Positions 3,256 through 18,477 of a stretch of DNA of 23,490 nt are shown here, one piece after another (position 1 is the first letter of the stretch; each line of letters begins with the position of its first letter). Position numbers and translations under genes: made by a program. The stretch is from a virus, in the IMG/VR virus record IMGVR_UViG_3300042154_000412, positions 1 through 23,490 of that record, one strand, 5' to 3'. A model generated the notes under the pieces. It saw only the letters and a program-made list of their open reading frames with translations, was not told the DNA's origin and did not search any database.

Positions 3256-3693
3256 ATGATAAAAGAGAATTATAAAATAGATAATAGTTTTGCTAAATAC
3301 AATAAAGTAGCAGATAGAATAGAGAAAGTAACAGGAGTTAATATATTTGATAAAAAGAGAACGTTAGAGATAGTAGATGCGAGAGCTACAGCTTGTTATA
3401 TTTATAGAAAGTATTATAATGGTACTTTGCACTCGATAGCAGATTACTTTAAAAAAAATGGTAAGAATTTCGATCATAGTACGGTACATTATAATGTTAG
3501 ATTATTTGATCAGGAAGTTAAAAATAGGAGGAGAGATATAAGTGATAGAATGAATTTTTTAATAGGATCTATCGATGGTAATACTCAGCTGAATATAGTT
3601 ATAGATACGATATTAAGTGATGATGATAAGAATAGAATTATAGCAATAGTCAACAGACTTGTTAACAAATATAAAAAAGACAGCGTTATATAA
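3256..3693 (+). CDS. DnaA domain IV-like DNA-binding protein
   Basis: This 145-residue protein carries a helix-turn-helix like the C-terminal domain of the replication initiator DnaA. Residues 34-52 (RTLEIVDARATACYIYRKY) match the first helix region, residues 58-66 the second, and FDHSTVHYNVR at 72-82 matches the DnaA signature (RDHSTV-x-x-A). There is no AAA+ ATPase part. Such stand-alone domains may bind DnaA-box-like DNA at a phage origin, or act as regulators. No DnaA box cluster stood out to me in the window. The last 28 nt of the gene carry a copy of the CAAA/CGTTATAT promoter motif. Confidence 0.65.
   Translation: MIKENYKIDNSFAKYNKVADRIEKVTGVNIFDKKRTLEIVDARATACYIYRKYYNGTLHSIADYFKKNGKNFDHSTVHYNVRLFDQEVKNRRRDISDRMNFLIGSIDGNTQLNIVIDTILSDDDKNRIIAIVNRLVNKYKKDSVI
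3666..3691 (+). promoter_or_regulatory. phage late-promoter motif, copy E (divergent)
   Basis: CAAA at 3666-3669, then 11 nt, then CAGCGTTATAT at 3681-3691. Spacing and CGTTATAT are identical to the other four copies; TAA is replaced by CAG. It sits inside the end of the DnaA-like gene, just before the block leading to the methyltransferase and terminases. The ATG at 3693 lies too close to the motif to be translated from this start, so the first gene served would be 3839 or later. Confidence 0.5.
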
Positions 3694-3842
3694 TGGAACT
3701 AACAAAAGAAAATAAAAAAGCATTACTTGCTTATTTTGACAACACTACAATTAATATCACTAACCTTATTAAAAAAATAGGTAGAGAAGAGACAAAACAA
3801 TTAGAGAATTTTATCGATAAGCTTTATAAAGAAAAATTATGA
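3693..3842 (+). CDS. 49-aa hypothetical protein
   Basis: It encodes 49 residues, Lys- and Glu-rich, probably two helices (LTKENKKALLAYF and IKKIGREETKQLENFIDKLY). It begins in a TAATG overlap with the DnaA-like gene and ends in an ATGA overlap with the DUF3310 gene. I do not recognise it. The double coupling supports translation. Confidence 0.55.
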   Translation: MELTKENKKALLAYFDNTTINITNLIKKIGREETKQLENFIDKLYKEKL

Positions 3843-4060
3843 AACCAATACACTACAAAGGAGTAAAAGATTACGATGTAATAGACTTCTGCAAAGATTA
3901 TGATTTAAACTTCAACAAAGGTAATATAGTAAAGTACCTAGTAAGAGCAGGTAAAAAAGATGATGAGCTTAGGGATATGAGAAAGGCTTTAGATTATATC
4001 GAGAGAGAGATTAAATGGTTAGAGCAGCAGCAGATAGAATGGATAGAAAATAATAAGTAG
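3839..4060 (+). CDS. DUF3310 family protein
   Basis: This 73-residue protein matches DUF3310, a small family common in phages and sometimes named nucleotide kinase without firm proof. It starts PIHYKG (the usual HY near the N-terminus), then has FNKGNIVKYLVRAGKKDD at about 25-42 (the GNxxKYxxRAGxK core), and RKALDYIEREI at 48-58. It overlaps the previous gene by ATGA. Family membership is clear; the biochemical role is not known to me. Confidence 0.8.
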   Translation: MKPIHYKGVKDYDVIDFCKDYDLNFNKGNIVKYLVRAGKKDDELRDMRKALDYIEREIKWLEQQQIEWIENNK

Positions 4061-4062
4061 AT

Positions 4063-4161
4063 ATGGAAGATTGGAGCAGTTGTTGTGGTACTGAGAGACA
4101 CCATATATGGAATGATTTATGTAGTGCTTGTTTAGAGCATTGTGAGTTTGAAGATCAATAA
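4063..4161 (+). CDS. 32-aa zinc-ribbon-like micro-protein
   Basis: It encodes 32 residues with five cysteines: Cys7-Cys8, then Cys20-x2-Cys23 and Cys27, plus His13, His14 and His26. The pattern SCCG...LCSACLEHCEF resembles short zinc-binding proteins found in Bacteroidota phages. It starts 2 nt after the DUF3310 stop. It is too short to assign a role; binding of one zinc ion is likely. Confidence 0.55.
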   Translation: MEDWSSCCGTERHHIWNDLCSACLEHCEFEDQ

Positions 4162-4173
4162 ATGAAATAAGAT

Positions 4174-5385
4174 ATGATAGTAGAGATTAGCAAGATTCGA
4201 AATAACACTAATAACCCTAGATTCATAAAGGATGATAAGTTTAGAAAATTAGTAAAGTCTATTAAAGAATTCCCAGAAATGTTAGAACTTCGCCCTATAG
4301 TAGTGGATGAGGATATGATAGTCTTAGGAGGTAATATGAGATTAAAAGCCTGTATAGAGGCAGGATTAAAAGAGGTGCATATTAAGATAGCAGAGAACTT
4401 AACAGAGGATCAAAAAAAAGAATTCATAGTTAAGGATAATGTAGGATTCGGAGAGTGGGATTGGGATCTATTAGCTAATGAATGGGATAATGATTTATTA
4501 GAGGAGTGGGGTTTGGATATAACCGGATTCGATACCAACGAAGTATTAGAGGCAGAGGAAGATGATTTCGATAGTACACCACCGGAAGAGGCTATAACGG
4601 TCTTAGGAGATTTATACGAGATAGGAGAGCACCGTTTGTTATGTGGGGATAGTACAGATAGCGATAAGGTTGCTGAATTAATGAATGGAGAGAAAGCAGA
4701 TATGGTATTTACAGATCCTCCTTATAATATTGGATTTAAGGGCTCAATGTCAAATAAAATGATAAATGGAAAAAAGGCTCCTGCTGATAGTGCAAACCAA
4801 AGGCACGATAAAATAAAAAATGATGAAATGTCTGAGGAACAATTTTATAATTTTATTAGTGATATTTTGAAAGAAATTAAAATTAATTGTTTAGGTGCTT
4901 TTTATATTTGTTTCGGAAGTCAAACATTGAATCAGTTGTTACAACCACTTACGGATTTAGGAATTGAATATAAGTCTATAATTATTTGGATGAAAAATCA
5001 AGCAATTTTTAGCGGTAAAGATTTTAAAAGTAGATACGAGCCAATAGTTTACGGTAGATTTAATGATTTTTTTAATGGAGAAAGATTTAACGAGGAAGAT
5101 ATTTGGGAATTTGCAAGAACACAAAAAAACGATTTACACCCAACAATGAAACCAATACCTTTAATTGAAAATGCGTTAAAATATTCAAGTAATGAAGGTA
5201 TGATAGTTTTTGATCTATTTTTAGGTAGTGGATCAACTATGGTAGCATCACACCAATTAAAAAGAAAATGCTACGGTATGGAATTAGATCCGAAGTATTG
5301 CGACGTTATTATAAAAAGAATGCTTAAATTAGATCCTAATTTAGTAATTAAACGAAACGGAATTACAGTAAACGATTTTAATTAA
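4174..5385 (+). CDS. ParB-N domain / DNA (N4 or N6) methyltransferase
   Basis: This 403-residue protein has an N-terminal ParB/Srx-like domain (residues 1-90, with RPIVVDEDMIVLGGNMR carrying the GGxxR motif) joined to a methyltransferase. The catalytic motif DPPY is at 181-184, and the cofactor motif (FLGSGS, 349-354, then YGMELDPKYCD) follows it, the order of beta-class enzymes. It would methylate adenine or cytosine amino groups, perhaps protecting phage DNA from host restriction. The position just before the terminase genes is common in phages. Codon use changes near base 4740 (see findings), which suggests a recombinant C-terminal half. The target sequence cannot be read from the protein. 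Confidence 0.85.
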   Translation: MIVEISKIRNNTNNPRFIKDDKFRKLVKSIKEFPEMLELRPIVVDEDMIVLGGNMRLKACIEAGLKEVHIKIAENLTEDQKKEFIVKDNVGFGEWDWDLLANEWDNDLLEEWGLDITGFDTNEVLEAEEDDFDSTPPEEAITVLGDLYEIGEHRLLCGDSTDSDKVAELMNGEKADMVFTDPPYNIGFKGSMSNKMINGKKAPADSANQRHDKIKNDEMSEEQFYNFISDILKEIKINCLGAFYICFGSQTLNQLLQPLTDLGIEYKSIIIWMKNQAIFSGKDFKSRYEPIVYGRFNDFFNGERFNEEDIWEFARTQKNDLHPTMKPIPLIENALKYSSNEGMIVFDLFLGSGSTMVASHQLKRKCYGMELDPKYCDVIIKRMLKLDPNLVIKRNGITVNDFN

Positions 5386-5390
5386 ATAAT

Positions 5391-5741
5391 ATGAATGCAC
5401 AAAATTCAACACTAAAAAAGGCGATGCTCGAGGCATTAGAAAAATCTTTGTGTGTGGTTACTACAGCCTGTAAGCAGGTAGGCATAGATAGAGGTACTCA
5501 CTATAATTGGTTAAAGAATGATCCGGAGTATTCTAAGGAGGTTAAGAATTTAGAGAATATAGTTTTAGATTTTGCAGAGAGTCAGTTACATAAACAGATT
5601 AAAGATGGTAATACGACTGCTACTATCTTTTTGTTAAAGACTAAAGGTAAGTCTAGAGGATATATTGAGAGACAGGAAGTGGTTACTGATTCTGATAACT
5701 TCTTTAAAGTAGAGATCATAGATAATGAACATAAAGACTAA
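5391..5741 (+). CDS. terminase small subunit-like protein
   Basis: This 116-residue protein has an N-terminal helix-turn-helix (about 8-45: AMLEALEKSLCVVTTACKQV, then GIDRGTHYNWLKNDPEY), as in the DNA-recognition domain of small terminases. A helical middle (residues 52-70) could form the oligomer. Its stop overlaps the start of the large subunit gene by 17 nt, which is the strongest support. It would bind the phage packaging site. The sequence 5 nt upstream is A/T-rich without Shine-Dalgarno. Confidence 0.7.
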   Translation: MNAQNSTLKKAMLEALEKSLCVVTTACKQVGIDRGTHYNWLKNDPEYSKEVKNLENIVLDFAESQLHKQIKDGNTTATIFLLKTKGKSRGYIERQEVVTDSDNFFKVEIIDNEHKD

Positions 5742-6876
5742 TGTAGTATTTAAGCATCTTAATAGCTCGAATAAGAGAATAACTATAGAGCAGGGAGGTA
5801 CTAGGTCCGGTAAGACTTATAATATCCTTATATGGATTATATTTAGTTATTGCTCAGAGAATAGAGGCAAGACTATTACAATAGCCAGAAAGACCTTTCC
5901 TAGTTTAAGGACCTCAGCTATGAGAGATTTCTTTGAGATACTTAGAGCTTATGATTTATATAGTGAGGATAGGCATAATAAGTCTAGCTCAGAATATTCC
6001 CTTAATGGAAACTTAATAGAGTTTATATCATTGGATCAACCTCAGAAAGTTAGAGGTCGCAAAAGGGATCTATTGTATGTTAATGAGGCTAATGAGATGC
6101 ATTGGGAAGACTGGCAGCAATTAATATTTAGAACTAAAGAAAAAATAATACTAGATTACAACCCGAGTGATGAGTTTCATTGGATATATGATAAGGTTAA
6201 AACGAGAGAGGATGCTGATTTTTATATTACAACGTATAGAGATAACCCTTTCTTAGATGATCAGATTAAAAAAGAGATCGAAAGGTTAAGAGATACGGAT
6301 GAGAATTATTGGAATGTATACGGACTAGGACAAATAGGTCAGAGTAAGTCTTTGATATTCCGATTTAATGAAGTGGATCAGATACCTAAAGAGGCTAAGT
6401 TATTAGGATATGGTATGGACTTTGGATTTACTAATGATCCTACTACTCTCTCAGCAATATATCAGTCAGGGGATAATCTTTATTTTGATGAGTTAATTTA
6501 TAAAACAGGATTAACTAATCCGGATATCGTTAAAGAGTTTGAGACTCTGGGTATAGACAGAAGAGCTGAGATATTTGCAGATGATGCTGAGCCCAAAAGT
6601 ATAGAGGAGATTTATAGAATGGGATGGAATATAAAGGAGGCTAAGAAAAAAGAGATTAATCTAGGTATCGATATAATGAAACGATATAATCTATTCTGTA
6701 CCGGTAGATCAGTCAATATGATAAAAGAGTTTAAAAACTATAAATGGATAGAGGATAAGAATGGTAATATACTAAATAAGCCAGTAGATATGTTTAACCA
6801 CTCTATCGATAGTATTAGATATGTAATGTATAATAAAATGAGTAGACCTAATTATGGGAGATATGCAGTTCGATAA
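5725..6876 (+). CDS. terL: terminase large subunit
   Basis: This 383-residue packaging motor has an ATPase half and a nuclease half. Walker A is GGTRSGKT at 24-31; Walker B is LLYVNEA at 116-122, with Glu121 as catalytic acid. The nuclease domain starts with GMDFGFTNDPT (Asp232), continues with EIFADDAEP (Asp286/287), and ends with FNHSIDSIRYV, giving the acidic residues of an RNase H-like site. The size is close to the usual 400-480 residues of this PBSX-like group but slightly short. It overlaps the small subunit (17 nt) and the next gene (23 nt), and it is the best marker that this is a tailed phage. Confidence 0.92.
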   Translation: MNIKTNVVFKHLNSSNKRITIEQGGTRSGKTYNILIWIIFSYCSENRGKTITIARKTFPSLRTSAMRDFFEILRAYDLYSEDRHNKSSSEYSLNGNLIEFISLDQPQKVRGRKRDLLYVNEANEMHWEDWQQLIFRTKEKIILDYNPSDEFHWIYDKVKTREDADFYITTYRDNPFLDDQIKKEIERLRDTDENYWNVYGLGQIGQSKSLIFRFNEVDQIPKEAKLLGYGMDFGFTNDPTTLSAIYQSGDNLYFDELIYKTGLTNPDIVKEFETLGIDRRAEIFADDAEPKSIEEIYRMGWNIKEAKKKEINLGIDIMKRYNLFCTGRSVNMIKEFKNYKWIEDKNGNILNKPVDMFNHSIDSIRYVMYNKMSRPNYGRYAVR

Positions 6877-7096
6877 TCTAAGAAGTGATTATATAAGATT
6901 AAGACAAACAGGATCGTTTAGCTCAGACTTCTTTTATAGATATTATAAATACAAGGGAGGAGATCTAGGATTCCAGGAATTCAATATGATATTTAAACTA
7001 GGTAGCTTTCACGATGTACTAAATGGAATGGATAAGATATTCTCAGTTAATAAGGTATTAGATAAGAATGGAGAGCTATTGAGAATAGTAGATTAA
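6854..7096 (+). CDS. 80-aa hypothetical protein after terL
   Basis: It encodes up to 80 residues, aromatic-rich (DFFYRYYKYKGGD, about 25-37). The start is uncertain: ATG at 6854 gives MGDMQF, and ATG at 6863 gives MQFDNL; both overlap terL (23 or 14 nt). It is the last gene before host-type promoter P2. Small genes in this position occur in related phages, but I do not know the function. Confidence 0.55.
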   Translation: MGDMQFDNLRSDYIRLRQTGSFSSDFFYRYYKYKGGDLGFQEFNMIFKLGSFHDVLNGMDKIFSVNKVLDKNGELLRIVD

Positions 7097-7124
7097 AAAA
7101 AAATAAAAAAAAGTTTAAAATATA

Positions 7125-7155
7125 TTTGGTTATTAAAAAATTGTTTATATCTTTG
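7125..7155 (+). promoter_or_regulatory. Bacteroidota housekeeping-type promoter P2
   Basis: TTTG at 7125-7128, then 19 nt, then TATCTTTG at 7148-7155: the same boxes and spacing as P1. It is followed by ACTAAAAGATAT at 7171-7182, overlapping the ATG at 7181. The surrounding A/T tract also resembles that of P1, so the two look like copies of one cassette. It drives three small genes that end at the terminator at 7676. Confidence 0.75.
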
Positions 7156-7180
7156 TAGAGTAATATTAAAACTAAAAGAT

Positions 7181-7318
7181 ATGGAAACGATTAAAGACTT
7201 AGAAAAACAGGTTGCTTTAGATCAGATAGAGATACTGATATCCTTAGCTGAAGTATCAGAGCGTGCTTATCATATTAAGAAACTAGAACAAATTAAAGAA
7301 TACATTTTAAAACAATAA
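7181..7318 (+). CDS. 45-aa helical hypothetical protein, first gene after P2
   Basis: It encodes 45 residues that look like one or two long amphipathic helices with heptad-like hydrophobics (IKDLEKQVALDQIEILISLA, then HIKKLEQIKEYIL), a possible coiled coil. It starts about 25 nt after the -7 box of P2. The family is unknown. Like the first gene after P1, it has an ACTAAAAGATAT leader, so the two may share timing. Confidence 0.55.
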   Translation: METIKDLEKQVALDQIEILISLAEVSERAYHIKKLEQIKEYILKQ

Positions 7319-7322
7319 GACT

Positions 7323-7460
7323 ATGAGAACAATAACAGGAATTTTATCAGCTAGTATAGTGATGGCTAGTAATGATTATTTAGTACAGATTGCATTTGCT
7401 TTATTAACTTTCTATTTGATATATCGTGAGCTTAAAAGCGATGAGCGTATGTCTCAGTAA
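7323..7460 (+). CDS. 45-aa probable membrane protein
   Basis: It encodes 45 residues with one good membrane segment (about 19-34: YLVQIAFALLTFYLIY) followed by a charged tail (RELKSDER). A preceding weakly hydrophobic stretch (ITGILSASIVMA) could be a second, short segment. It starts 4 nt after the previous stop and overlaps the next gene by 20 nt. It could be a small inner-membrane protein with a lysis or exclusion role, but the position is no proof. Confidence 0.5.
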   Translation: MRTITGILSASIVMASNDYLVQIAFALLTFYLIYRELKSDERMSQ

Positions 7461-7656
7461 TGGTATCCTTATATATCCGGTAGTTATAGATGAGAGTTAT
7501 TTCGATGGTAAAAAGAAAGTGAATTATGTAAGGATCGAGATTAATGATAGAGGCAAGAAGACTACCGGTAAGGATAGATACAAACAGAATGATGAGTTAA
7601 CAAATAAAGTATTAGAATTATATAAAATATTAAATTTAAAATTAGGTTTAAATTAG
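7441..7656 (+). CDS. 71-aa hypothetical protein
   Basis: I chose ATG at 7441; a GTG at 7426 in the same frame would add 5 residues, but GTG starts are not needed elsewhere here. The 71 residues begin with a strand-like hydrophobic part (GILIYPVVIDE), then a basic section (KKTTGKDRYKQ) and a C-terminal helix (ELTNKVLELYKILNLKL). It is the last gene of the P2 unit, 19 nt before a strong terminator. The function is not recognised. Confidence 0.55.
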   Translation: MSVCLSNGILIYPVVIDESYFDGKKKVNYVRIEINDRGKKTTGKDRYKQNDELTNKVLELYKILNLKLGLN

Positions 7657-7675
7657 TTAAAGTTGGTTAAGAATT

Positions 7676-7702
7676 GGTAGTCAGAAATGGCTACCTTTTT
7701 TT
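7676..7702 (+). terminator. rho-independent terminator closing the P2 unit
   Basis: GGTAGTCA at 7676-7683 pairs with TGGCTACC at 7688-7695 (8 bp with one G-T pair) around a GAAA tetraloop, followed by seven T at 7696-7702. Copy A of the late-promoter motif begins 5 nt further on, so this is a clean border between transcription units. Confidence 0.9.
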
Positions 7703-7707
7703 GTTCA

Positions 7708-7733
7708 CAAAGTATTAGGTAGTAACGTTATAT
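7708..7733 (+). promoter_or_regulatory. phage late-promoter motif, copy A
   Basis: CAAA at 7708-7711, then 11 nt, then TAACGTTATAT at 7723-7733. It lies between the terminator at 7676 and the first tail gene at 7749, with no other promoter-like sequence in the gap. If CGTTAT (7726-7731) is the -10 box, transcription starts near 7738, leaving a leader of about 11 nt. It should drive the whole tail block to 14850. Confidence 0.75.
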
Positions 7734-7748
7734 ATAAAATGATTAAGA

Positions 7749-8411
7749 ATGAAAGTAAGTATTAAAATTCCGGCTACATTATCAGAGATAACTTTAGAGC
7801 AATATCAAAAGTATATAAAGATATATGAGCAGAATAAAGATATAGAAAATGCTGATGTATTCCTGGAGTTAAAGATGATAGAGATCTTTTGTTACCTACC
7901 CTATTCTGAGGTAGTTAATATTAAGTATAAGGATGTCAAAGGTATAGTAGACCATCTTAATAGTTTATTAAGTTTAAAGCCTGATCTAGTTAAGGGATTC
8001 GAGTTAGGAGATAAAAAATTCGGATTCGTTACTAATCTAGATGAGTTAACCTTTGATGAGTATACTACTATCGATACTAATATATCTAGTATAGAGAATA
8101 TCCATATAGCTATGGCTGTGTTATATAGACCTATTCAGACAGGATCTTATAAGTCAAAATATATCATAGAGGACTATGAGATCAAAAAGTATTGGGAGGT
8201 AATGAAACATATGCCTTTAGATGCTGTAATGAGTAGCTTAGTTTTTTTTTGCAATTTAGGGAAAGAACTTTCAAAAGCTACCCTGAGATATTTGCAGACA
8301 CAGGCAGTCAAGGAGGATTTTCAGCTAGAGCTCAATTTAGTTCAAAATGGAATTGGTATAACTCACTTTACAGACTTAGTGGAGGAGACATTACAAAGTA
8401 TGGATATGTAG
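7749..8411 (+). CDS. tail assembly chaperone-like protein, short (G-like) form
   Basis: This 220-residue protein opens the tail block. Features are ITLEQYQKYIKI near residue 14, a central LDELTFDEYTTID, AVLYRPI, and HMPLDAVMSSLVFFCNLGKELSK (about 156-178), a layout I associate with tail assembly chaperones of Bacteroidota phages. It reads through a T9 run at 8242-8250; after that point frame -1 is also open and carries a conserved-looking protein (see the next entry). By analogy with lambda gpG/gpGT, this would be the abundant short form that coats the tape measure with the longer form. The normal frame continues 54 codons past the run, longer than in lambda. An ATG at 7739 is out of frame and stops after eight codons. 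Confidence 0.65.
   Translation: MKVSIKIPATLSEITLEQYQKYIKIYEQNKDIENADVFLELKMIEIFCYLPYSEVVNIKYKDVKGIVDHLNSLLSLKPDLVKGFELGDKKFGFVTNLDELTFDEYTTIDTNISSIENIHIAMAVLYRPIQTGSYKSKYIIEDYEIKKYWEVMKHMPLDAVMSSLVFFCNLGKELSKATLRYLQTQAVKEDFQLELNLVQNGIGITHFTDLVEETLQSMDM
8243..8249 (+). other. candidate -1 ribosomal slippery site (T TTT TTT)
   Basis: In the chaperone frame the codons read TTA GTT TTT TTT TGC, with nine T in a row at 8242-8250. T-TTT-TTT at 8243-8249 fits the X-XXY-YYZ rule for -1 slippage. After slippage the next codons are TTG CAA TTT AGG, open to 8509. I did not find a convincing stimulatory hairpin just downstream. Confidence 0.6.
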
Positions 8412-8509
8412 CCAAAATGAATATACACGAATGCCTATTATTTTTATGTTACAAATCTGAGCTAGATGAGCTAGATGCAAATGAATTAAGAAAAAATTTT
8501 AAGAAATGA
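8249..8509 (+). CDS. tail assembly chaperone frameshift extension (T-like)
   Basis: This is the -1 frame part, 86 codons, that would be fused to residues 1-167 of the chaperone to make a protein of about 253 residues. It has no ATG at its start; only a TTG at 8249, inside the slippery run, and an internal ATG at 8417. The sequence contains FSSKWNWYNSLYRLSGGDIT and then NIHECLLFLCYKSELDELDA, a pattern I recall from phage tail proteins (KWGWY, hydrophobic, GDI, then a C-terminal helix). Its stop overlaps the next gene by ATGA, as most real genes here do. Production by frameshift is therefore more likely than chance openness. An indel in a T9 run is the alternative. Confidence 0.65.
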   Translation: MQFRERTFKSYPEIFADTGSQGGFSARAQFSSKWNWYNSLYRLSGGDITKYGYVAKMNIHECLLFLCYKSELDELDANELRKNFKK

Positions 8510-8985
8510 TAACTAATACCTACGGATTACAGAATTTTTATAAGGTTACGGATATGATGAGAGAGGCTTTTGATAATAGCCCTTATGTTAATACTGTTAC
8601 CTATGGTAATATATTCGAGATAGATTTAAACAAGCAAACTATATTCCCTTTAACGCATATCCAGGTTAATACAGCTACTCACTCTGAGAACTTAATTACC
8701 TATTCAATTAGTATAATGAATATGGATATAGTAGATCAGTCTAAAGATCCTGTGATAGATCAGTATTATGGTAATGATAATTTACATTATGTATATAATA
8801 CTCAGTTAGCTGTTATTAATGAGTTTGTTCAATTAGTAAAAAGAGGTAGTATTAGTAGAGATGGATTCCAATTAAATGGAGATGCGAGTAGTGAGGCTTT
8901 TATGGACCGATACGAAAACTTATTAGCAGGATGGGTTACTACTATTAATATCGATGTAGCTAATAATATATCAGTATGCAGTTAG
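8506..8985 (+). CDS. putative tail/neck structural protein
   Basis: This 159-residue protein is coupled by ATGA to the frameshifted chaperone extension and overlaps the next gene by 10 nt. Visible parts are YGLQNFYKVTDMMREAFDNSP at the N-terminus, a strand-rich centre (IFPLTHIQVNTA, ITYSISIMNMDIVD) and a C-terminal AGWVTTINIDVANN. The strand-rich centre with a late amphipathic piece resembles tail terminator or completion proteins that cap the tail tube, and its place beside the gp10-like gene agrees. The assignment is by position and general look only. Confidence 0.5.
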   Translation: MITNTYGLQNFYKVTDMMREAFDNSPYVNTVTYGNIFEIDLNKQTIFPLTHIQVNTATHSENLITYSISIMNMDIVDQSKDPVIDQYYGNDNLHYVYNTQLAVINEFVQLVKRGSISRDGFQLNGDASSEAFMDRYENLLAGWVTTINIDVANNISVCS

Positions 8986-10516: not shown

Positions 10517-12874
10517 ATGGAAGTAGCTCTATATATAAAGACTCCTAAATTTCAAAATGCTAATGCTATTACTCTCTCTAGTTTTATGAATAGAGTTAGT
10601 AATGATGGCGGAGTATTTGAGGCAGCTGATTGTTGTATGGATATCATAGAAAGTCTAGGAGGTGCGTTTGATACTTTAGATACTTATAATAGAATTGAGT
10701 TGTTTAATGATGAGAAAATTAGTGTTACAAGTTCTGTACAAAATATTAGCGATATATCAAAAGTCTTTACAGATTACTCACAGAGCTTTACGATTCCGGC
10801 TAGTAAGAATAATAATGAGATTTTTAGACATTGGTATGAGAATAGTATAGATAATGCATATGATCAGAGAATAAGATATCCAGGTTATATTGAAATAGAT
10901 ACTCAGACTTTTAGATCAGGGAGATGGCAATTAGAGGGAGCTACTATTAAGAATAACAGAGTAGAGGATTATAAGCTAACTTTCTATGGAGAATTAAAGA
11001 GTTTAATGGATAAGTTCGGTGATGAGAAATTACAGGATGTAAAAGAGTTAAATGATTATACAGTTTCGTATAGTGGGGACTTAGTACAGGAGTTAGTTAC
11101 AACACCTTTAAGTGCTTCACAAACCGATGTAATGTTTCCTTTAATTAGTAGCAAAAGAACTTGGGCAGCAGCTGATCCTGAGGCACCTACATCGAGTAGT
11201 TATCCAATAGTTTATAACGAGTTATTCCCTGCAATAAAATTGCCTTTAATACTTAATGCTTTTGAAACTAGATATGGAGTTAATTTTAATGGTGCATTTT
11301 TAACTGATGATCGTTTTACAAAAGCGTATTTATGGCTAAAAAATAGTGAGGCTGAAACGTACACTATGACTAGTGCTGAGCGTAGGATAGAAATACAAGC
11401 TACCGAGAATGATGGTAACTTTTATGCTAATGCTGATGATAATACTGTTACTGCTGTAGGTTTTGAGGATAGTGGAACTTTTACTGTTAATGTAACAAGT
11501 GCTACAGCTTTTGATATGACACTAACAGTTTATAAAGATAATGTATTTTTTGGATCTGTTCAAAGTGTTACTGATTCAATAAGCTATACTTTAGGTACAC
11601 AAACAGGTACAGGAGTATTTTCTTTTACAATTAAAAAAGCATATTCTGCATCTACTCCTACTTTTAATTATACTTATACTGCAAATAAATTTATTGTTAG
11701 TAACCCAATTCAGCCTACCGATGGTTTGATAACTACTTTTAGTGATAGTGGCTCAATAGTTATGAATAACTTAATGGATTTAGCGATCACTGCACCAGAT
11801 ATGAAAGTAAGTGATTTCTTTAGTGGTATGTTAAAAATGTTTAATCTTACTGCATATAGTACAGATGGAGTTAATTTCACATTAGAGCAGTTAGAGAATT
11901 GGTATTTTTTAGGAAAAATAAAAGATTTTAGCGGATATACAACTACTGATTTTGAATACAATAGAGTTAAGCCATATAAGAAAATAGATTTTAAATATCA
12001 AAAAAACGAAAGTATTTTAAATAGATCTTTTTACGATAGAAATGCTCGTGAATATGGTGATTTAAATTATGCTTTCTTTAACGACGGTAGTGATTACACA
12101 ATTCAGTTACCATTTGAGAATTTATTATTTACTAATTGGGATAATACAACTACAACTACTTCTTTACCGCAAGTAGGATATGCCTTTAAACCTGATTTAA
12201 AACCGTTTAAACCTAAAGGAGTTATTTTATATTTTACAGGTGGGCAGCCGTTTGATGTTGACTGGTATTTTAGTGATGGTGTAAACACTCCTATTAGTTT
12301 TAATTACGCAAATATATTCGGAGCTGATGTTAATATAAATAGAAACCAAACTAACACGATAAATTGGGGGGTTGAAATTAGTACTGTATATTTTGTAAAC
12401 GTTTATAGCACTTTATTTGCTAATTATTATTTAGCGTATTTGAATAACTTATATAGTTTAAAATCTAGGTTAGTAAAGGTTAAGATGAGATTGCCTTATT
12501 TAGAGATGCTGAATTTAAAGTTAAATGATAGGATAGTAATTAGAGATAAGAGGTATGTTATTAATCAGTACACTACAGATCTAACTACGTTTGAGACAGA
12601 TATGGAATTGATCCAGGATTTTAGAAGTATTAATTATAATAATAGTACAATAAGAACAACTGACAATTCAGTTCAAATTTTACGTTTTAATACTACATCA
12701 GTTAACCCGCTAATTTGGACAATAGAATCTGATCCTGAGGGATTAATAACAACGTTAACAAATGGGGATACCTACGTTGATGTGCAAATAAAAGCAAATG
12801 TATCTGGGATAGAACGTATTGCAAGTATAGTAAGTAATTTAGATGATAGAATAATAATAGTACAGGATGCTTAG
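10517..12874 (+). CDS. large tail/baseplate protein with C-terminal Ig/BACON-like domain
   Basis: This 785-residue protein is probably a tail-tip or baseplate protein. Residues 24-50 read FMNRVSNDGGVFEAADCCMD, a segment also found in the 78-aa protein at 21177. The core starts with DISKVFTDYSQSFTIPASKNN (about 78-99), a conserved element of large tail proteins of Bacteroidota phages, and continues strand-rich. The last 75 residues (from about 711) read as an Ig-like domain ending SGIERIASIVSN, then IIIVQDA; the IW-I and ER-x-A-x-I pattern resembles BACON domains, which in Bacteroidota phages may bind glycans or mucin. The gene begins directly after the previous stop and overlaps the next gene by 8 nt. 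Confidence 0.6.
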   Translation: MEVALYIKTPKFQNANAITLSSFMNRVSNDGGVFEAADCCMDIIESLGGAFDTLDTYNRIELFNDEKISVTSSVQNISDISKVFTDYSQSFTIPASKNNNEIFRHWYENSIDNAYDQRIRYPGYIEIDTQTFRSGRWQLEGATIKNNRVEDYKLTFYGELKSLMDKFGDEKLQDVKELNDYTVSYSGDLVQELVTTPLSASQTDVMFPLISSKRTWAAADPEAPTSSSYPIVYNELFPAIKLPLILNAFETRYGVNFNGAFLTDDRFTKAYLWLKNSEAETYTMTSAERRIEIQATENDGNFYANADDNTVTAVGFEDSGTFTVNVTSATAFDMTLTVYKDNVFFGSVQSVTDSISYTLGTQTGTGVFSFTIKKAYSASTPTFNYTYTANKFIVSNPIQPTDGLITTFSDSGSIVMNNLMDLAITAPDMKVSDFFSGMLKMFNLTAYSTDGVNFTLEQLENWYFLGKIKDFSGYTTTDFEYNRVKPYKKIDFKYQKNESILNRSFYDRNAREYGDLNYAFFNDGSDYTIQLPFENLLFTNWDNTTTTTSLPQVGYAFKPDLKPFKPKGVILYFTGGQPFDVDWYFSDGVNTPISFNYANIFGADVNINRNQTNTINWGVEISTVYFVNVYSTLFANYYLAYLNNLYSLKSRLVKVKMRLPYLEMLNLKLNDRIVIRDKRYVINQYTTDLTTFETDMELIQDFRSINYNNSTIRTTDNSVQILRFNTTSVNPLIWTIESDPEGLITTLTNGDTYVDVQIKANVSGIERIASIVSNLDDRIIIVQDA

Positions 12875-13013
12875 ATTTATATTAGATGCGTTACAATACG
12901 CAGAGTACGGAGAGAATGAGTATATAGATATCGCTAAGGGTAAATATAGAAAGGCTACTAGTTGGAATGAATTTAAAAGAGATTTAAAAGAGATAGTAAA
13001 TGGCAATAACTAA
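12867..13013 (+). CDS. 48-aa hypothetical protein before the tape measure
   Basis: It encodes 48 residues with two likely helices (LRFILDALQYAEYG and TSWNEFKRDLKEIV). It overlaps the tail gene before it by 8 nt and the tape-measure gene after it by 14 nt, so translation of all three is linked. I do not recognise it; small proteins at this place may be tail assembly helpers. Confidence 0.55.
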   Translation: MLRFILDALQYAEYGENEYIDIAKGKYRKATSWNEFKRDLKEIVNGNN

Positions 13014-14850
13014 GACTATAGAAATAGAGGTTAACTCTTCACAGGCTAATCAGAGTATAGATAGCTTAACCAATTCCTTAAATAAGAATGAGGAAGTAGT
13101 TAAGTCTTTAAAGCAGCAATATAAAGAGGCTGCATTAGAGGTACAAAGATTAGGAGATCAGTATGGAGTAACTTCTAAAGAGGCTACTGAGGCAGCAAAG
13201 AGAGCAGCAGATTTAAAAGATAGGATAGAGGATAGTAATGATGCTATCGCGGCTTTTAAGGGAGAGGGTGCTTTTAATGCTACAGCTAAGGCAGTTGGTG
13301 CGGTTGCTAGTGGTTTTAGTGCTGTACAGGGAGCGTTGGCTTTAGCGGGTGCTCAGTCTGAGGAGTTTGAAAAAACGATGGTACGATTACAGGGTGCTAT
13401 GGCTTTGGCTCAGGGGTTACAAGGACTAGAGGACTTAGGTCGTAGCTTTCAACAGTTAAAGGTTGTAGCGGTTAATGCGTTTAATGGTATTAAAGCAGCT
13501 ATTGGATCTACAGGAATAGGTCTTTTATTAATTGCTTTAGGTGCTGTAGTTACTTATTGGGATGATATTAAGAGTGCTGTTAGCGGTGTTAGTGAGGAGC
13601 AAAAGAAATTAAATGCTGATTCTGAAAATAACCTTAATATCCAAAAGGGAAAATTAGATAGCCTTTCATTACAAGAAAATTCATTAAGATTACAGGGTAA
13701 GTCGGAGAAAGATATCCTAAAAATGAAAGTATCTCAGACTGATCAGATCATTAAAGCAGCAGAGATACAATTAGAAAATAGTATTGCAACTTCTAAGGCT
13801 CAAACTGAGGCAGCTAAAAGAAACCAGGATATATTAGCCGGTGTTTTAAAGTTCCTTTCGTTACCTTTAACAATGATCTTAAAGACAGTTGATGCTGTAG
13901 GTGCTGCATTAGGTAAGGATTTCGGGTTAGAGGATAAGGTATTTAAAGGATTATCATCATTTGTATTTGATCCAAAAGAAACAGCAGCAGAGGGAGCTAA
14001 AGTTATAGCAGAGCAAAGAAAAGCATTAGCGGTATTAAAGTCACAAAAAGATGCTAATTTATTAGCTATTCAGAATATAGATAAAACAGCCTCAGATAAA
14101 GCGGCAGCGGATGCTAAAGCTAAAAGCGATAAAGCTAAGGCAGATGCTGAGAAAGCTATGAATACTCAGTTAGATGATCTTAATAAACAAAGTGAGATAT
14201 TAGCTAAGGGTAGAGATATAGCTAAAGCAAATAATGAGAATCTCTTAAGTGATCTTAAAGATTTTGGAGCTAAGAAAACAGCTGAGATAGTAAAGAATCT
14301 AGATGAACAGATAGCAGCAGAGGCGGCAGCAGCTAAGACTAAAGAAGAGATAGCTAAATTAGAGGCTGAGAATAAATTAAAAATGTTAGATGCAGTAGCC
14401 GGAGGGTTAAGTCTAGCGGCAGATGAGTTAGGAGCTAGTACAGCAGCCGGCAAAATAGCAGCCGTTGCAGCAGCATCGATATCTACTTACACAGCTATAG
14501 CAGGTCAGTTAGCTGCTTTCTCTAATGTACCTGTTCCTGGTTATGCTATTGCTCAGGCTATTATAACAGGTGCTACAGGTTTGTTACAAGTTAAGAAAAT
14601 ATTAGCTGTTAAGACTCCTAAGAGTAAGGGATCAGCAGGAGGGGCTCCTAGTCTTGGAGGCGGTGGATCAGGTGGTACAGCTCCGGCAGCAGCTCCTAGT
14701 TTTAATATTATAGGGAATAGTGGTGTTAATCAAATAGCTCAAACATTAGGGCAGCAGCAACCGGTACAGGCTTATGTAGTGGCTAATTCAGTTACCACTC
14801 AGCAGGCTTTAGATAGATCTATCGTACAGAATGCTAGTCTAGGAGGATAA
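13000..14850 (+). CDS. tape measure protein
   Basis: This 616-residue protein is the tail length ruler. It begins AITKTIEIEVNSSQANQSI, followed by a long Ala/Lys/Glu-rich helical region (about 25-95), a Gly/Ala-rich hydrophobic part with GSTGIGLLLIALGAVVTYW near 167-186 (the usual membrane-active segment), a second coiled-coil region (residues 360-465), another hydrophobic stretch and a Gly/Ser/Pro-rich end. At about 0.15 nm per residue this predicts a tail of roughly 90-95 nm, so a siphovirus with a short-to-medium tail. It ends the block served by late-motif copy A. A reverse ORF within the Ala-rich part is an artefact of repetitive composition. Confidence 0.85.
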   Translation: MAITKTIEIEVNSSQANQSIDSLTNSLNKNEEVVKSLKQQYKEAALEVQRLGDQYGVTSKEATEAAKRAADLKDRIEDSNDAIAAFKGEGAFNATAKAVGAVASGFSAVQGALALAGAQSEEFEKTMVRLQGAMALAQGLQGLEDLGRSFQQLKVVAVNAFNGIKAAIGSTGIGLLLIALGAVVTYWDDIKSAVSGVSEEQKKLNADSENNLNIQKGKLDSLSLQENSLRLQGKSEKDILKMKVSQTDQIIKAAEIQLENSIATSKAQTEAAKRNQDILAGVLKFLSLPLTMILKTVDAVGAALGKDFGLEDKVFKGLSSFVFDPKETAAEGAKVIAEQRKALAVLKSQKDANLLAIQNIDKTASDKAAADAKAKSDKAKADAEKAMNTQLDDLNKQSEILAKGRDIAKANNENLLSDLKDFGAKKTAEIVKNLDEQIAAEAAAAKTKEEIAKLEAENKLKMLDAVAGGLSLAADELGASTAAGKIAAVAAASISTYTAIAGQLAAFSNVPVPGYAIAQAIITGATGLLQVKKILAVKTPKSKGSAGGAPSLGGGGSGGTAPAAAPSFNIIGNSGVNQIAQTLGQQQPVQAYVVANSVTTQQALDRSIVQNASLGG

Positions 14851-14852
14851 GA

Positions 14853-14878
14853 CAAATATTAAAAAACTAACGTTATAT
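14853..14878 (+). promoter_or_regulatory. phage late-promoter motif, copy B
   Basis: CAAA at 14853-14856, then 11 nt, then TAACGTTATAT at 14868-14878, in the 33-nt gap between the tape measure and protease genes. The ATG at 14884 is 13 nt after the C of CGTT, so a -10 reading gives a transcript with almost no leader. No terminator precedes it. Confidence 0.75.
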
Positions 14879-14883
14879 ATAAT

Positions 14884-15507
14884 ATGGAAACAAGAGAGAT
14901 AATAGAGTTAATCATAGATGAGAGCCAAGAGCTTAGCGGAGTAGATGCTATTAGTATAGTAGAGAGCCCGGCTATAGAGGAAAACTTTATAGCATTATCT
15001 AAGCAAAAGGAGTATAAGTTTGAGAGTATAGATGAGGATAAGCGTATCTTAGTTGGTCCGTTATTAATACCTAATAAACAAATCTATAGAAAGGATGGAG
15101 ATAGAGAGTATTATGTATATTTCTCTAAAGAGACTATTCGTAAAGCTATGGAGTTATATGCTCAGAGAGGATATCAAAACAATGCTACATTTGAACATAG
15201 AGAGGATATTAACGGATTAACCTTAGTGGAGAGTTGGATTATCGAAAGTAAAGAGCACGATAAAACTAATCTTTATGGTATGGATCTACCTGAGGGAACT
15301 TGGGTAGGTACTATTAAAGTTAATAATCCGGTTATATGGGAGGAATTTGTTAAGACAGGTACGGTAAAAGGATTCAGTATAGAGGGATATTTTGCTGATA
15401 AGAAACATAATGATGAGGATACTGAGTTGTCTATTGAGATAGAGGCGGGATTAAAGCTATTGGGTATTAAAGCTGAATTATTAAAAGCTATAGTTTATGG
15501 CAAATAA
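14884..15507 (+). CDS. XkdF-like prohead serine protease (Peptidase_S78_2 type)
   Basis: This 207-residue protein would cut scaffold and capsid proteins during head maturation. After GVDAISIVESPAIEENFIAL (residues 19-38, typical of the XkdF family) it has VGPLLIPNKQIYR, the putative catalytic His105 in ATFEHRED, VESWIIES, and putative catalytic Ser165 in VKGFSIEGYF. The order His, then Ser in G-F-S-x-E-G, fits the herpesvirus-assemblin-like fold of HK97-type proteases. It opens the head block behind late-motif copy B and overlaps the next gene by 11 nt. Confidence 0.8.
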   Translation: METREIIELIIDESQELSGVDAISIVESPAIEENFIALSKQKEYKFESIDEDKRILVGPLLIPNKQIYRKDGDREYYVYFSKETIRKAMELYAQRGYQNNATFEHREDINGLTLVESWIIESKEHDKTNLYGMDLPEGTWVGTIKVNNPVIWEEFVKTGTVKGFSIEGYFADKKHNDEDTELSIEIEAGLKLLGIKAELLKAIVYGK

Positions 15508-15712
15508 TAAAAATTATATCCCTAGTTGGTCTAGTCCTAAAGGAGGTAAAAGAGGATGTCTATGTATCGATAAGGATATCTATGATGTTAAGTGCTGTAA
15601 TGGAGATTTAAGAGAGCAAGGTATTGGTCCTATTCAGAGACAGGCAGATTATCTATTAACTGAGAATAAAGAAACGATATTAACTGAAAATTATAATGAT
15701 ATAACACTATGA
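15497..15712 (+). CDS. 71-aa Cys-motif protein (GCLC...KCC)
   Basis: It encodes 71 residues with a core of KGGKRGCLC (Cys21, Cys23), then YDVKCCNGD (Cys33, Cys34) and QGIGP. Four cysteines spaced in this way probably hold one metal ion or two disulphides. I recall the RGCLC...KCC..(x)..QGIG pattern from small proteins of Bacteroidota phages, next to structural genes, with no known function. It overlaps the protease by 11 nt and the next gene by ATGA. Confidence 0.6.
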   Translation: MANNKNYIPSWSSPKGGKRGCLCIDKDIYDVKCCNGDLREQGIGPIQRQADYLLTENKETILTENYNDITL

Positions 15713-16269
15713 GTAAAAGAATAAGCGAGTTACCATTAGCTAGTAGTATTACAGGGACAGAGGTATTGCCTATAGTACAGGGAGGAGTAACTAAAAAAAT
15801 AGCTATTAATACTATATCCGGTGCTAACTTTGGATGGGGTAGATATGATGATACACAATATACAGCGGGTAGTCCTTATACGTTTACTTCTGCTCCCTTT
15901 ACAGTACCTAATAATGCAGGTAATATAATTGATAATACAGACTTTACTTTCTATTCTAGTAATGAATTAAGAGCAGAGAATATAGATGATGTATATATTA
16001 TTACTATTGCCTTTAAAGCTCAGATTAGTAATGGTAATGGATATATGGATTTATATTTAGAGAGTGGTAATGGTACTCCTTATGATAGAGTTAGAGATAC
16101 GATTACTTTCCCTAAGGGTGCTAATCAAGATCATACGTTTGCTAAGACCTTTCAATTTTATGCTGATGAGTTTGTAGTTGCTAATGGATTATCGGTTAAA
16201 ATGGATGCGTCTCACAATGGACATATTCACGATGTTATCTATTTTATTCAGCGTACACTAAAGTATTAA
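15709..16269 (+). CDS. putative head decoration or fibre protein
   Basis: This 186-residue protein starts with KRISELPLASSITGTEVLPIVQGGVTKKI, a short N-terminal motif shared by many phage fibre and decoration proteins, where it may anchor the protein to the virion. The rest, from about residue 45, is strand-rich and polar (AGSPYTFTSAPFTV, IITIAFKAQIS, MDLYLESGNG, TFQFYADEFVV), consistent with a jelly-roll like C1q/TNF-like domain. The location between the protease and scaffold-like genes suggests a capsid appendage rather than a tail fibre. It ends 49 nt before the next gene, with copy C of the late motif between them. Confidence 0.55.
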   Translation: MSKRISELPLASSITGTEVLPIVQGGVTKKIAINTISGANFGWGRYDDTQYTAGSPYTFTSAPFTVPNNAGNIIDNTDFTFYSSNELRAENIDDVYIITIAFKAQISNGNGYMDLYLESGNGTPYDRVRDTITFPKGANQDHTFAKTFQFYADEFVVANGLSVKMDASHNGHIHDVIYFIQRTLKY

Positions 16270-16274
16270 AAATG

Positions 16275-16300
16275 CAAAATTTAAGTTATTAACGTTATAT
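16275..16300 (+). promoter_or_regulatory. phage late-promoter motif, copy C
   Basis: CAAA at 16275-16278, then 11 nt, then TAACGTTATAT at 16290-16300, between the decoration-like gene and the scaffold-like gene. The predicted leader to the ATG at 16319 is about 14 nt. It gives the scaffold and major capsid genes a promoter of their own, fitting their need for high expression. Confidence 0.75.
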
Positions 16301-16318
16301 TGATAAATTAATTATTTT

Positions 16319-16882
16319 ATGAAACCAAGTGAATTATTAAAAAACATTCAGACTCTATTAAGTGCTAAGATTGAATTAGCTCAGGAGAAATTGATGGATG
16401 GTATGATTCTGGAGGCTGAGAGCTTTGAGCCAGGTATGCCTGTTTACATTGTAACAGAAAACGGACCGGAGCCTTTAGAAAAAGGAGAGTACAAGCTAGA
16501 AAACGGTAAAACGTTAGTAGTAGCTGAGGATGGTATTATCGACCTTATCGCTGAGGTAGAGGTAGAAAAAGAAATTGAGATCGAGGCAGCTGCTGTAGAA
16601 GTAGTAGAGGAAGAGCCTGTAGTAGAAGAGGTTAAAGAGGAAGTAATGGAAGAGGCACCATTAAGTCAACAGGAGATTATCGATGCTGTTATTAGCGTTG
16701 TAGCTCCAATGTTAGAGGAGATGAGAGCTCAGTTAGAGGATGTTAAAATGAAAATTGAGACAGCTAAAGAGACTAAGATGAGCAAAGTAGTTCATACTCC
16801 AGAAGTTAAACAAACTGCTACTAAATTATCAAACAACAAAAAGAATAACGTATTAGAAACTATTTTTGAAAAATTAAATTAA
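16319..16882 (+). CDS. putative capsid scaffold-like acidic protein
   Basis: This 187-residue protein lies 7 nt before the major capsid gene. It starts with a helix (SELLKNIQTLLSAKIELAQ), has a small strand region (VYIVTENGPEPLEKGEYKL), then a very acidic, Glu/Val-rich stretch at about 80-115, and a helix-rich end with EIIDAVISVVAPMLEEMRAQLEDVKMKI and a basic tail. High acidity, coiled-coil tendency and this position are typical of scaffold proteins that guide capsid assembly and are removed by the protease. No clear family match comes to mind. Confidence 0.6.
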   Translation: MKPSELLKNIQTLLSAKIELAQEKLMDGMILEAESFEPGMPVYIVTENGPEPLEKGEYKLENGKTLVVAEDGIIDLIAEVEVEKEIEIEAAAVEVVEEEPVVEEVKEEVMEEAPLSQQEIIDAVISVVAPMLEEMRAQLEDVKMKIETAKETKMSKVVHTPEVKQTATKLSNNKKNNVLETIFEKLN

Positions 16883-16889
16883 TTAAACA

Positions 16890-17813
16890 ATGAGCAACTT
16901 AACAAGACAAAACTTTTCAGAGCCTGCAATTACTACAACTTATGCAGGTGAATTCGCAGGTAAATATATCGCTGCGGGTGTATTATCAGCTCCTACTTTA
17001 AAAGAGGAGGGTATTACAATTATGCCAAATGTAAAATCCAAATCAGTATTAAAAAAATTAGCTAATGTAATTACTATTGCAGATGCTACTTGTGATTATA
17101 CCGATACTGCTGATGTAACGTTAACAGAGAAAGTATTAGAAGTAACTGAGAAACAAGTTAACTTAACTTTATGTAAAACTCCTTTCGAGGAAGATTGGCA
17201 AGCTGTTTCTATGGGCTACTCTTCATTTGATACATTACCTCAAACTTTTACTGATTTCTTTATTGCTAATATGTTAGAGCAAGTATCTTATGCTACTGAA
17301 ACTACTGTATGGAATAGCTTAATCTCTCAGGCGATTGCTGATGGTGCTGATGATTCATTGAATCCTGGTGCTTTAACTGCTGCTAATATTATTGATACTT
17401 TAGGAGATGCTTTAGATTTATTGCCATCTAACGTATATGGGAAAGAGGATTTAACTTTCTATATGGGATTTGATGCTTATAAGGCTTATGTAAGAGCTTT
17501 AGGTGGATTTGCTGCTAATGGAGTAGGTGCTAATGGTGTTGATGGTAAGGGTACAATGTGGTACAATGGAATTCAGAGCTTAACTTTTGATGGTGTTAAA
17601 ATCTTCGTTTCTGGAGAGTTGACTAGCAAAGTAGTTTTAGCTAGAAAATCTAACTTGTATTTCGGAATTGGACTTTTAGATAATTTGAATGAGTGCCGAG
17701 TTTTAGATATGGCTCCGCTTGACGGCAGCAAAAATGTAAGATTTATAATGAGATGGTCTCAGGGTACGCAAGTAGGTTTCGGTAACGAGATTGTATTAGT
17801 TAACTGCGACTAA
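16890..17813 (+). CDS. major capsid protein
   Basis: This 307-residue protein is the best candidate for the capsid subunit. It has NFSEPAITTTYAGEFAGKYIA at the start, VKSKSVLKKL, then LEVTEKQVNLTLCKTPFEEDW (about 83-104), and a final part with FIMRWSQGTQVGFGNEIVLVN, where a viral-coat-like strand ends. The same type of protein occurs as the major capsid protein of Bacteroidota phages, to my recollection; an HK97-like fold is expected but cannot be shown by sequence alone. Genes before it (protease, scaffold) fit. It is followed within 8 nt by a strong terminator, as expected of a highly expressed gene. Confidence 0.75.
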   Translation: MSNLTRQNFSEPAITTTYAGEFAGKYIAAGVLSAPTLKEEGITIMPNVKSKSVLKKLANVITIADATCDYTDTADVTLTEKVLEVTEKQVNLTLCKTPFEEDWQAVSMGYSSFDTLPQTFTDFFIANMLEQVSYATETTVWNSLISQAIADGADDSLNPGALTAANIIDTLGDALDLLPSNVYGKEDLTFYMGFDAYKAYVRALGGFAANGVGANGVDGKGTMWYNGIQSLTFDGVKIFVSGELTSKVVLARKSNLYFGIGLLDNLNECRVLDMAPLDGSKNVRFIMRWSQGTQVGFGNEIVLVNCD

Positions 17814-17821
17814 TTATATAG

Positions 17822-17848
17822 GGGAGGGTAACTCCTCCCTTTTTTTTT
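17822..17848 (+). terminator. rho-independent terminator after the capsid gene
   Basis: GGGAGG at 17822-17827 pairs with CCTCCC at 17834-17839 (all G-C or A-T), with a six-base loop, followed by nine T at 17840-17848. This is a strong terminator, 8 nt after the capsid stop. No late-promoter motif follows it. Confidence 0.9.
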
Positions 17849-17869
17849 AACTTTAATACATAAAAATAT

Positions 17870-18394
17870 ATGCTTTGTGGAATTTCAACCGGGAGGTTAT
17901 TAGCGTGTAAAGACAACGTTGGCGGAATTAGAAATATCTATTTTGCTGACTATGGTACGCTAGGAGCCCTTACAATTTCTGGAGGAGAGTTAACTGCTAT
18001 TGCAGGTACTCCTGAGATCTTTAGATATGAAGTTAGAGGAGCTAATAATTTAGAGGTAACCGTTACTCAGTCTGCTGATAATGGTACTACTTATTATGAG
18101 CAAGCCCTTAACGTTACATTAAATAAATTAGATGCTGATACTACTGAGGCTTTAAATAATATTATTATCGGTAGACCTCACGTTTTCGTAGAGGATAACA
18201 ACGGAAAATTTTACTCGGTAGGTGTTACTAGAGGATGTGATACTACAGGTGGAACATTTGCCACTGGGGCCGCATTTGGCGACCTCTCAGGCTATACCCT
18301 AGCTTTGACAGCGTCTGAGCCATTTTTCCCATACCAGGTAACTAGTACTATTATTAGTGCTAATTTAGAGAATGTTAATATTGATCCTGCATAA
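17870..18394 (+). CDS. putative major tail protein
   Basis: This 174-residue protein is strand-rich and uncharged in large parts. It contains STGRLLACKDNVGGIRNIYFAD near the N-terminus, LTISGGELTAIAGTPEIFRYEV, and VTRGCDTTGGTFATGAAFGDLSGYTLALTASEP near the end. This matches a structural protein next to the capsid gene in Bacteroidota phages that I know as a tail-tube-like protein. It lies alone between two terminators (17822 and 18420) without its own late motif, so it should be made by readthrough or from a promoter I cannot recognise. It could also be a capsid decoration protein. Confidence 0.55.
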   Translation: MLCGISTGRLLACKDNVGGIRNIYFADYGTLGALTISGGELTAIAGTPEIFRYEVRGANNLEVTVTQSADNGTTYYEQALNVTLNKLDADTTEALNNIIIGRPHVFVEDNNGKFYSVGVTRGCDTTGGTFATGAAFGDLSGYTLALTASEPFFPYQVTSTIISANLENVNIDPA

Positions 18395-18419
18395 TAAGGA
18401 TTAAATAATATAAGAGAGA

Positions 18420-18448
18420 GGGTAGCTTAATTGCTATCCTTTTTTTTT
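18420..18448 (+). terminator. rho-independent terminator after the major tail gene
   Basis: GGGTAGC at 18420-18426 pairs with GCTATCC at 18433-18439 (7 bp, one G-T) around TTAATT, followed by nine T at 18440-18448. Late-motif copy D begins 3 nt later, repeating the terminator-promoter arrangement seen at 7676-7733. Confidence 0.9.
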
Positions 18449-18451
18449 GTG

Positions 18452-18477
18452 CAAAAAATAAAATAATAACGTTATAT
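18452..18477 (+). promoter_or_regulatory. phage late-promoter motif, copy D
   Basis: CAAA at 18452-18455, then 11 nt, then TAACGTTATAT at 18467-18477. It stands directly behind a terminator and before the portal block. With CGTTAT at 18470-18475 as -10, transcription would start close to the ATG at 18482, so the mRNA may be leaderless. Confidence 0.75.

Follow-up and report, generated by a model that had tools for sequence, protein, structure and literature searches.

In phages T4 and SPO1, the host RNA polymerase is switched to later genes by phage late or middle sigma factors (gp55 of T4, gp28 and gp33-34 of SPO1), which differ from the system described below in sigma group and boxes and in their use of extra co-activators. 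In phage phiEco32, the sigma factor gp36 diverts the RNA polymerase of the host to the middle and late genes, and the early promoters are of host type (PMC8948821, PMC4331800). SaPh711_gp47 of Salmonella phage 7-11 is related to sigma24, a sigma factor of the extracytoplasmic function (ECF) type, possesses region 4 and works with the host RNA polymerase; among its nearest relatives is a protein of the flavobacterium Winogradskyella, and the late genes of phage 7-11 are preceded by bipartite promoters, GTAAtg-(16)-aCTA (PMC8948821). In this study, a two-box element and a sigma-like gene were analyzed in a 23.5-kb viral record (IMG/VR record IMGVR_UViG_3300042154_000412, whose whole stretch of 23,490 nucleotides is referred to as the window), in which nearly all genes are on the + strand. 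The element, CAAA followed by CGTTATAT, occurs in five copies. Comparisons of sequences suggest, with a probability of about 0.88, that these copies are phage late promoters read by a phage-encoded ECF-type sigma factor together with host RNA polymerase. The small and mostly uncultured phage family to which the window belongs probably infects Bacteroidetes.

Similar to phage 7-11, this family combines a phage sigma factor possessing region 4 with bipartite sites before late genes, recognized here from sequence alone. Phage 7-11 is, however, a larger enterobacterial phage with other boxes, another host phylum and another genome type. The window family is distinguished by its CAAA box, closer spacing, Bacteroidetes setting and predicted fusion of promoter and start codon, and the phage 7-11 paper has no mention of a leaderless arrangement (PMC8948821). 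The two sigma factors are likened at the general ECF level. Different from the two boxes and region 4 of the window family, phiEco32 has a single-element promoter, tAATGTAtA, and its sigma factor shows no homology to region 4. Bacterial ECF systems, such as sigmaH of Mycobacterium tuberculosis (Mtb), share with the window family a two-domain sigma factor, a -35-like box, a -10 box of the CGTT/GTT type, strictness of sequence and an almost rigid spacing (PMC6411747). The sites also have the two boxes, the near-fixed spacing and the CGT in the -10 box that are expected of ECF promoters. They depart from them in the upstream box, as bacterial ECF promoters have a GGAAC-type -35 whose AAC lies ~17 bp from GTT, whereas gCAAA of the window family is nearer to box 2 and ends 14-16 bp before GTT. 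Moreover, unlike for bacterial ECF sigma factors, no anti-sigma factor was identified for the sigma factor of the window. The family, its host group and the leaderless layout appear new, whereas phage ECF-like late sigma factors with bipartite promoters are already established experimentally in phage 7-11. The new regulon claimed in the first-pass annotation of this DNA holds for this phage family, but phage late sigma factors of this kind were known from phage 7-11 (PMC8948821).

The first part of the window contains the sigma-like gene, small early genes, and the genes for an exonuclease, a DnaA_C protein, a fusion of ParB and methyltransferase, and terminase. The remainder contains tail genes, the head protease gene, the scaffold/capsid region, and the genes for the portal and a tail protein. 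The promoters are called late because of the genes that they would serve. The sigma factor, the five putative promoters and two terminators are as follows:

48..542, + strand: phage-encoded ECF-type sigma factor, 164 amino acids, regions 2 and 4 (from profiles and predicted fold)
3666..3691, + strand: putative promoter P1, CAAA-14-CGTTATAT, inside the 3'-terminal part of the DnaA_C gene and upstream of the nucleotide-kinase-like/methyltransferase/terminase operon
7676..7702, + strand: intrinsic terminator immediately upstream of P2, stem 7676-7695 plus T7 (terminator scan)
7708..7733, + strand: putative promoter P2, upstream of gene 7749, the first of the tail-side operon
14853..14878, + strand: putative promoter P3, upstream of the S78-type head protease gene, whose ATG at 14884 is 13 nt past the C of CGTT
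16275..16300, + strand: putative promoter P4, upstream of the scaffold-like gene 16319 and of gene 16890, which presumably encodes the major capsid protein
18421..18448, + strand: intrinsic terminator immediately upstream of P5, GGGTAGC-TTAATT-GCTATCC plus T9 (read from the sequence)
18452..18477, + strand: putative promoter P5, upstream of gene 18476 and portal gene 18810

CAAA-N11-TAACGTTATAT was found at exactly four positions in the window (7708, 14853, 16275 and 18452), its chance expectation was 0.00, and none of 100 shuffled sequences reached four copies. The fifth copy, at 3666, carries CAGCGTTATAT instead of TAACGTTATAT. The 8-mer CGTTATAT, for which 1.2 occurrences were expected, was found five times on the + strand and not on the - strand. 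The copies other than that at 3666 are located in gaps ahead of 7749, 14884, 16319 and 18476/18482, and 3666-3691 is within the DnaA_C gene (3256-3693; Pfam, E = 3e-9), at its 3' end. The true start of gene 18476 is probably the ATG at 18482, which is 12 nt past the C of CGTT. The identities of the protease at P3 and of the portal were supported by matches to PF14550 (E = 1.7e-14) and PHROG 33693 (E = 5e-102), respectively. P2 and P5 begin 4-6 nt past the T-run of an intrinsic terminator, although the terminator ahead of P5 was read by eye and was not listed by the terminator scan. Given the terminators directly ahead of them, transcription must restart at these two sites, as expected of a new start. 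These results bear out what the first-pass annotation had described, namely five copies, an 8-mer confined to these places on the + strand, four copies in gaps with the fifth in the end of a DnaA-like gene, and two copies following rho-independent terminators. Two of its statements hold in part. Its motif unit stands for the two-box core, whereas the leading TAA is found only in the window and is absent from the family core, gCAAA-N13-15-CGTTATAT with an A/T-rich spacer. Likewise, its invariant phasing applies to the window, in which the spacing is constant, but not to the family, in which it ranges from 13 to 15 nt.

Relatives were gathered via the sigma-like protein, and whole records were fetched for many of them. 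The protein search yielded 25 viral contigs with identities of 38-100%, and a profile search yielded >280 viral stretches; among bacterial genome candidates, no sigma relative was confirmed by the profile search. The window and eight relatives made up a near-complete set of nine genomes (257 kb), in which 41 CAAA..CGTTATA pairs with spacers of 13-15 nt were found on the coding strand (14, 24 and 3 at 13, 14 and 15 nt, respectively) and none on the other strand. The controls gave 0-3 pairs at any other spacer and one in reversed sequence. Protein-homology mapping placed the sites of the relatives at the same five places, which are the terminase operon, the tail operon, the S78 protease, the scaffold/capsid and the portal. 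By our count, 38 of the 40 expected sites were present in the eight relatives, including some whose box 1 has a single mismatch, while the identity of the sigma-like protein falls to 38% among them. The orthologous P1 site was found in six of the eight, either where the DnaA_C gene ends or immediately ahead of the small terminase gene. Since the spacer sequences are not conserved, the conservation of the sites is not simple DNA similarity. In a count of the exact 26-mer in viral contigs, single matches were mostly due to chance, and only those records with multiple matches were relatives. The first-pass annotation had named absence of the motif before orthologous genes and its placement at random as evidence against a late promoter. 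Neither was found, as the sites of the relatives are in place and the motif is strand-specific and, beyond the control counts above, absent at random spacings. Together with a real sigma gene, these results support the late-promoter reading.

The same signal is found in isolated phages. Nonlabens phage P12024S was found via its portal, which is 34% identical to that of the window. Its gp33 is annotated 'Sigma-70 region 2' and matched the sigma-family profile with an E value of 8e-27, although the profile alignment includes gp33 as one row; in a comparison built without it, region 2 was aligned at 95.7% probability. The upstream regions of P12024S, listed without use of the exact motif of the window, contain CAAA-N13/14-CGTTAA ahead of six genes or operons, five of which have an ATG exactly 12 nt past the C. 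Its sister phage P12024L possesses the same signal and a sigma homologue. In four flavobacterial phages without a sigma gene (11b, P12002L, FCL-2 and 6H), no site with an ATG at 12/13 nt was found. A tblastn search of annotated phages with the sigma factor of the window, or with a distant one, gave no match, and no account of this system in flavobacterial phages was found in the open-access literature. Bacteroidetes hosts are rich in ECF sigma factors, and the order and spacing of the boxes are ECF-like, so that the sites might be promoters read by a host ECF sigma factor that the phage exploits, with another role for the phage sigma-like protein. This is very unlikely, given that the profile search recovered the sigma family from >280 viral stretches and from no bacterial genome candidate, that the four sigma-free phages lack the sites, and that diverged phage sigma factors accompany correspondingly diverged boxes, as described below.

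The sigma-like gene reported in the first-pass annotation proved real by profile alignment and predicted fold. The product of the open reading frame (ORF) at 48-542 matched TIGR02937 (sigma70-ECF) with an E value of 2.2e-8 over residues 13-161 of 164 and the sigma factor family PHROG 1740 with an E value of 4e-4. Regions 2 and 4 are present and regions 1.1 and 3 are absent, as in ECF (group 4) sigma factors. Its AlphaFold2 model has a mean predicted local distance difference test (pLDDT) score of 71, and the closest PDB matches of the model were E. coli sigmaE, Bartonella RpoE, SigL/SigH of Mtb and SigW. The model aligns over residues 1-164 with ECF sigma factors from RNA polymerase complexes, and its two domains, fitted one at a time, superpose on structures of region 2 and region 4 at about 2.4-3.8 Å each. 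The poor overall root mean square deviation of the model may, we think, be due to the linker joining the two domains. A PDB sequence search with the sigma profile gave chance matches only.

The copies of the motif within a genome change in concert, and they do so together with the sigma factor. In a well-supported clade (G039-G042 and L206), every readable promoter copy has CTATATA in place of CGTTATA; in G039-G042 the copies read were the CAAA-linked P3-P5 and, in G039 and G041, also P2 and the methyltransferase promoter. In this clade CTATATA replaces CGTTATAT with the distance to ATG unchanged. In G047, both boxes of P3-P5 are changed together to CCAGTT-N13-(T/A)GTTATAT, i.e., TGTTATAT or AGTTATAT. 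G047 (L277, L278) is a divergent relative with its changed sites at 23460, 24703 and 26964, and its sigma factor has an unusual region 4 helix, DYCSIKRT. That all copies of a genome are altered at once argues for a trans-acting factor that reads them. Residue 70 of the sigma factor belongs to the helix that spans regions 2.3-2.4. All 36 CG-type rows have Asp at this position, and the six non-CG rows have Ala, Ser, Gln or Asn; no other conserved sigma column tracks the type of box 2. In L235 (Ala70) and L250 (Asn70), which were chosen by this residue alone, the sequence ahead of gene 7749 is without CGTT. Residue 70 is not Asp in L235, L237, L243, L247 and L250, which are short contigs whose own boxes are not fully readable. 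Covariation of box 1 with the region 4 recognition helix (YWSLRN vs. YYSLYN) was rejected, because both sigma types retain CAAA at P3-P5; in this comparison box 1 deviates only at some P2 sites.

The consensus of the primary sigma factor of Bacteroidetes is TTTG-N19-TAnnTTTG. Two matches to it were used:

1609..1639, + strand: host-type Bacteroidetes promoter match TTTG-N19-TATCTTTG, early region (consensus match only)
7125..7155, + strand: second host-type promoter match, near-identical to that at 1609, after the terminase operon (consensus match only)

With spacers of 17-21 nt, TTTG-N17-21-TAnnTTTG has three matches in the window (1609, 7125 and 18275), none of which overlaps the five sites. 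The latter do not match the Bacteroidetes consensus, in agreement with the earlier view that they are not host-type promoters. A scan of 16 genomes gave 42 host-type matches vs. 23 in the control, and because this excess is weak, use was limited to the two near-perfect matches (1609 and 7125). E. coli-type promoters were no commoner in a sigma-70 scan than in shuffled sequences. At 1609-1670 and 7125-7185, the near-identical matches are followed by a common leader stretch, ACTAAAAGATAT, before the first ATG, and the match at 7125 stands at the head of a small operon of auxiliary genes, with the terminase block on one side and the tail block on the other. The two sites presumably serve early and auxiliary genes.

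Bipartite sites ahead of operons could also be operators through which another phage regulator, such as the DnaA_C-type helix-turn-helix protein (3256-3693) or the small terminase subunit, controls late operons transcribed with a host sigma factor, and the DnaA_C-type gene adjoins P1 in most relatives. The sites are, however, present in P12024S, G005 and the fetched part of G039 (L204), in which no DnaA_C-type gene was detected. In addition, the five sites of the window do not overlap any host-type -33/-7 boxes, the boxes hold a promoter-like spacing and a mostly constant distance to the start codon, and the changes in box 2 follow a residue in sigma region 2. We consider operators unlikely and promoters for the phage sigma factor the better explanation.

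The distance between the C of box 2 and the ATG is exactly 12 nt at 58 of 101 distinct sites and 13 nt at another 8, together 66. In the open complex of Mtb sigmaH, the -10 box is GTT at -11 to -9 with its last T at -9 (PMC6411747), a register that we worked out from T-9 of this complex. Set in this register, CGTT has its C at -12, and an offset of 12 therefore places +1 at the A of ATG; with an offset of 13, this A is at +2. The 6-9 bp that separate the transcription start from the promoter element in phage 7-11 (PMC8948821) agree with such a start. By this geometry, many late mRNAs should be leaderless or almost so. The constancy of the 12-nt distance at most sites might also be expected if CGTTATAT..ATG were an element of translation initiation or of the mRNA leader. 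That it is such an element instead of a promoter is extremely improbable, because box 1 and box 2 remain 13-15 nt apart where the ATG is 18-30 nt away, so that the constraint lies between the boxes, and because transcription must restart at the two sites directly after terminators.

Several observations weigh against promoters that are read by the phage sigma factor and mostly fused to start codons. The scores of the sigma family profiles fall below the curated cut-offs, and the confidence of the sigma model is modest (predicted template modelling score, 0.47). P1 is not recognisable in G005 and G007. The relatives were sampled through the sigma gene and not blindly, except for P12024S, which was found via its portal, and the four controls. 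At P1 of the clade of the window, the ATG is at offset 9, a distance consistent with neither a leader nor a start exactly at +1, and at several P2/P4 sites the ATG is 16-30 nt away; leaderless starts are thus not universal. Finally, box 2 and residue 70 each change about three times on the tree, too few for a test of significance, and several non-CG sigma rows sit on long branches, so that the association between Asp70 and box 2 is suggestive but not proven.

For phage promoters read by the phage sigma factor, the following course of events is proposed. The early genes, including the sigma gene, would presumably be transcribed by the host polymerase from host-type promoters. The phage sigma factor would then accumulate and direct the host core polymerase to the five sites, where its region 4 would bind CAAA and its region 2 would open the DNA at CGTTATAT. 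The five starts would serve the packaging, tail, protease, scaffold/capsid and portal operons, and at most sites the placement of box 2 would set the transcription start at the first nucleotide (A) of the start codon or one nucleotide off.

Two other gene arrangements were observed in the window. An ORF of 78 amino acids, 48% identical to part of gene 10517, adjoins a GIY-YIG homing-endonuclease-like gene at 21410-22099 (whole region, 21177-22099); a similar small ORF lies ahead of the portal gene in P12024S. At 4174-5385, between P1 and terminase, a ParB-like domain is fused to an N6/N4 DNA methyltransferase.

The system described here may represent a complete and testable circuit of late-gene control in an abundant phage group, most of whose members are uncultured, and the isolated phages P12024S and P12024L, which carry the same system, open it to experiment. 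The naturally occurring sigma factors with matching promoter changes form a data set on the evolution of ECF specificity and may supply orthogonal sigma/promoter pairs for use in Bacteroidetes. Of 37 Bacteroidetes/Chlorobi genomes in a survey, only one had leaderless genes, although the survey could see Pribnow-type promoters alone (PMC3160421). Given this rarity, late mRNAs without leaders, as predicted here, would be a notable strategy of translation. It is possible, if somewhat doubtful, that throughout the family the virion mRNAs are strictly leaderless through fusion of promoter and start codon and that exclusive sigma/promoter specificities (CGTT, CTAT and TGTT) are governed largely by Asp70. 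If this is true, one sigma factor would set both the timing and the manner of late-gene expression.

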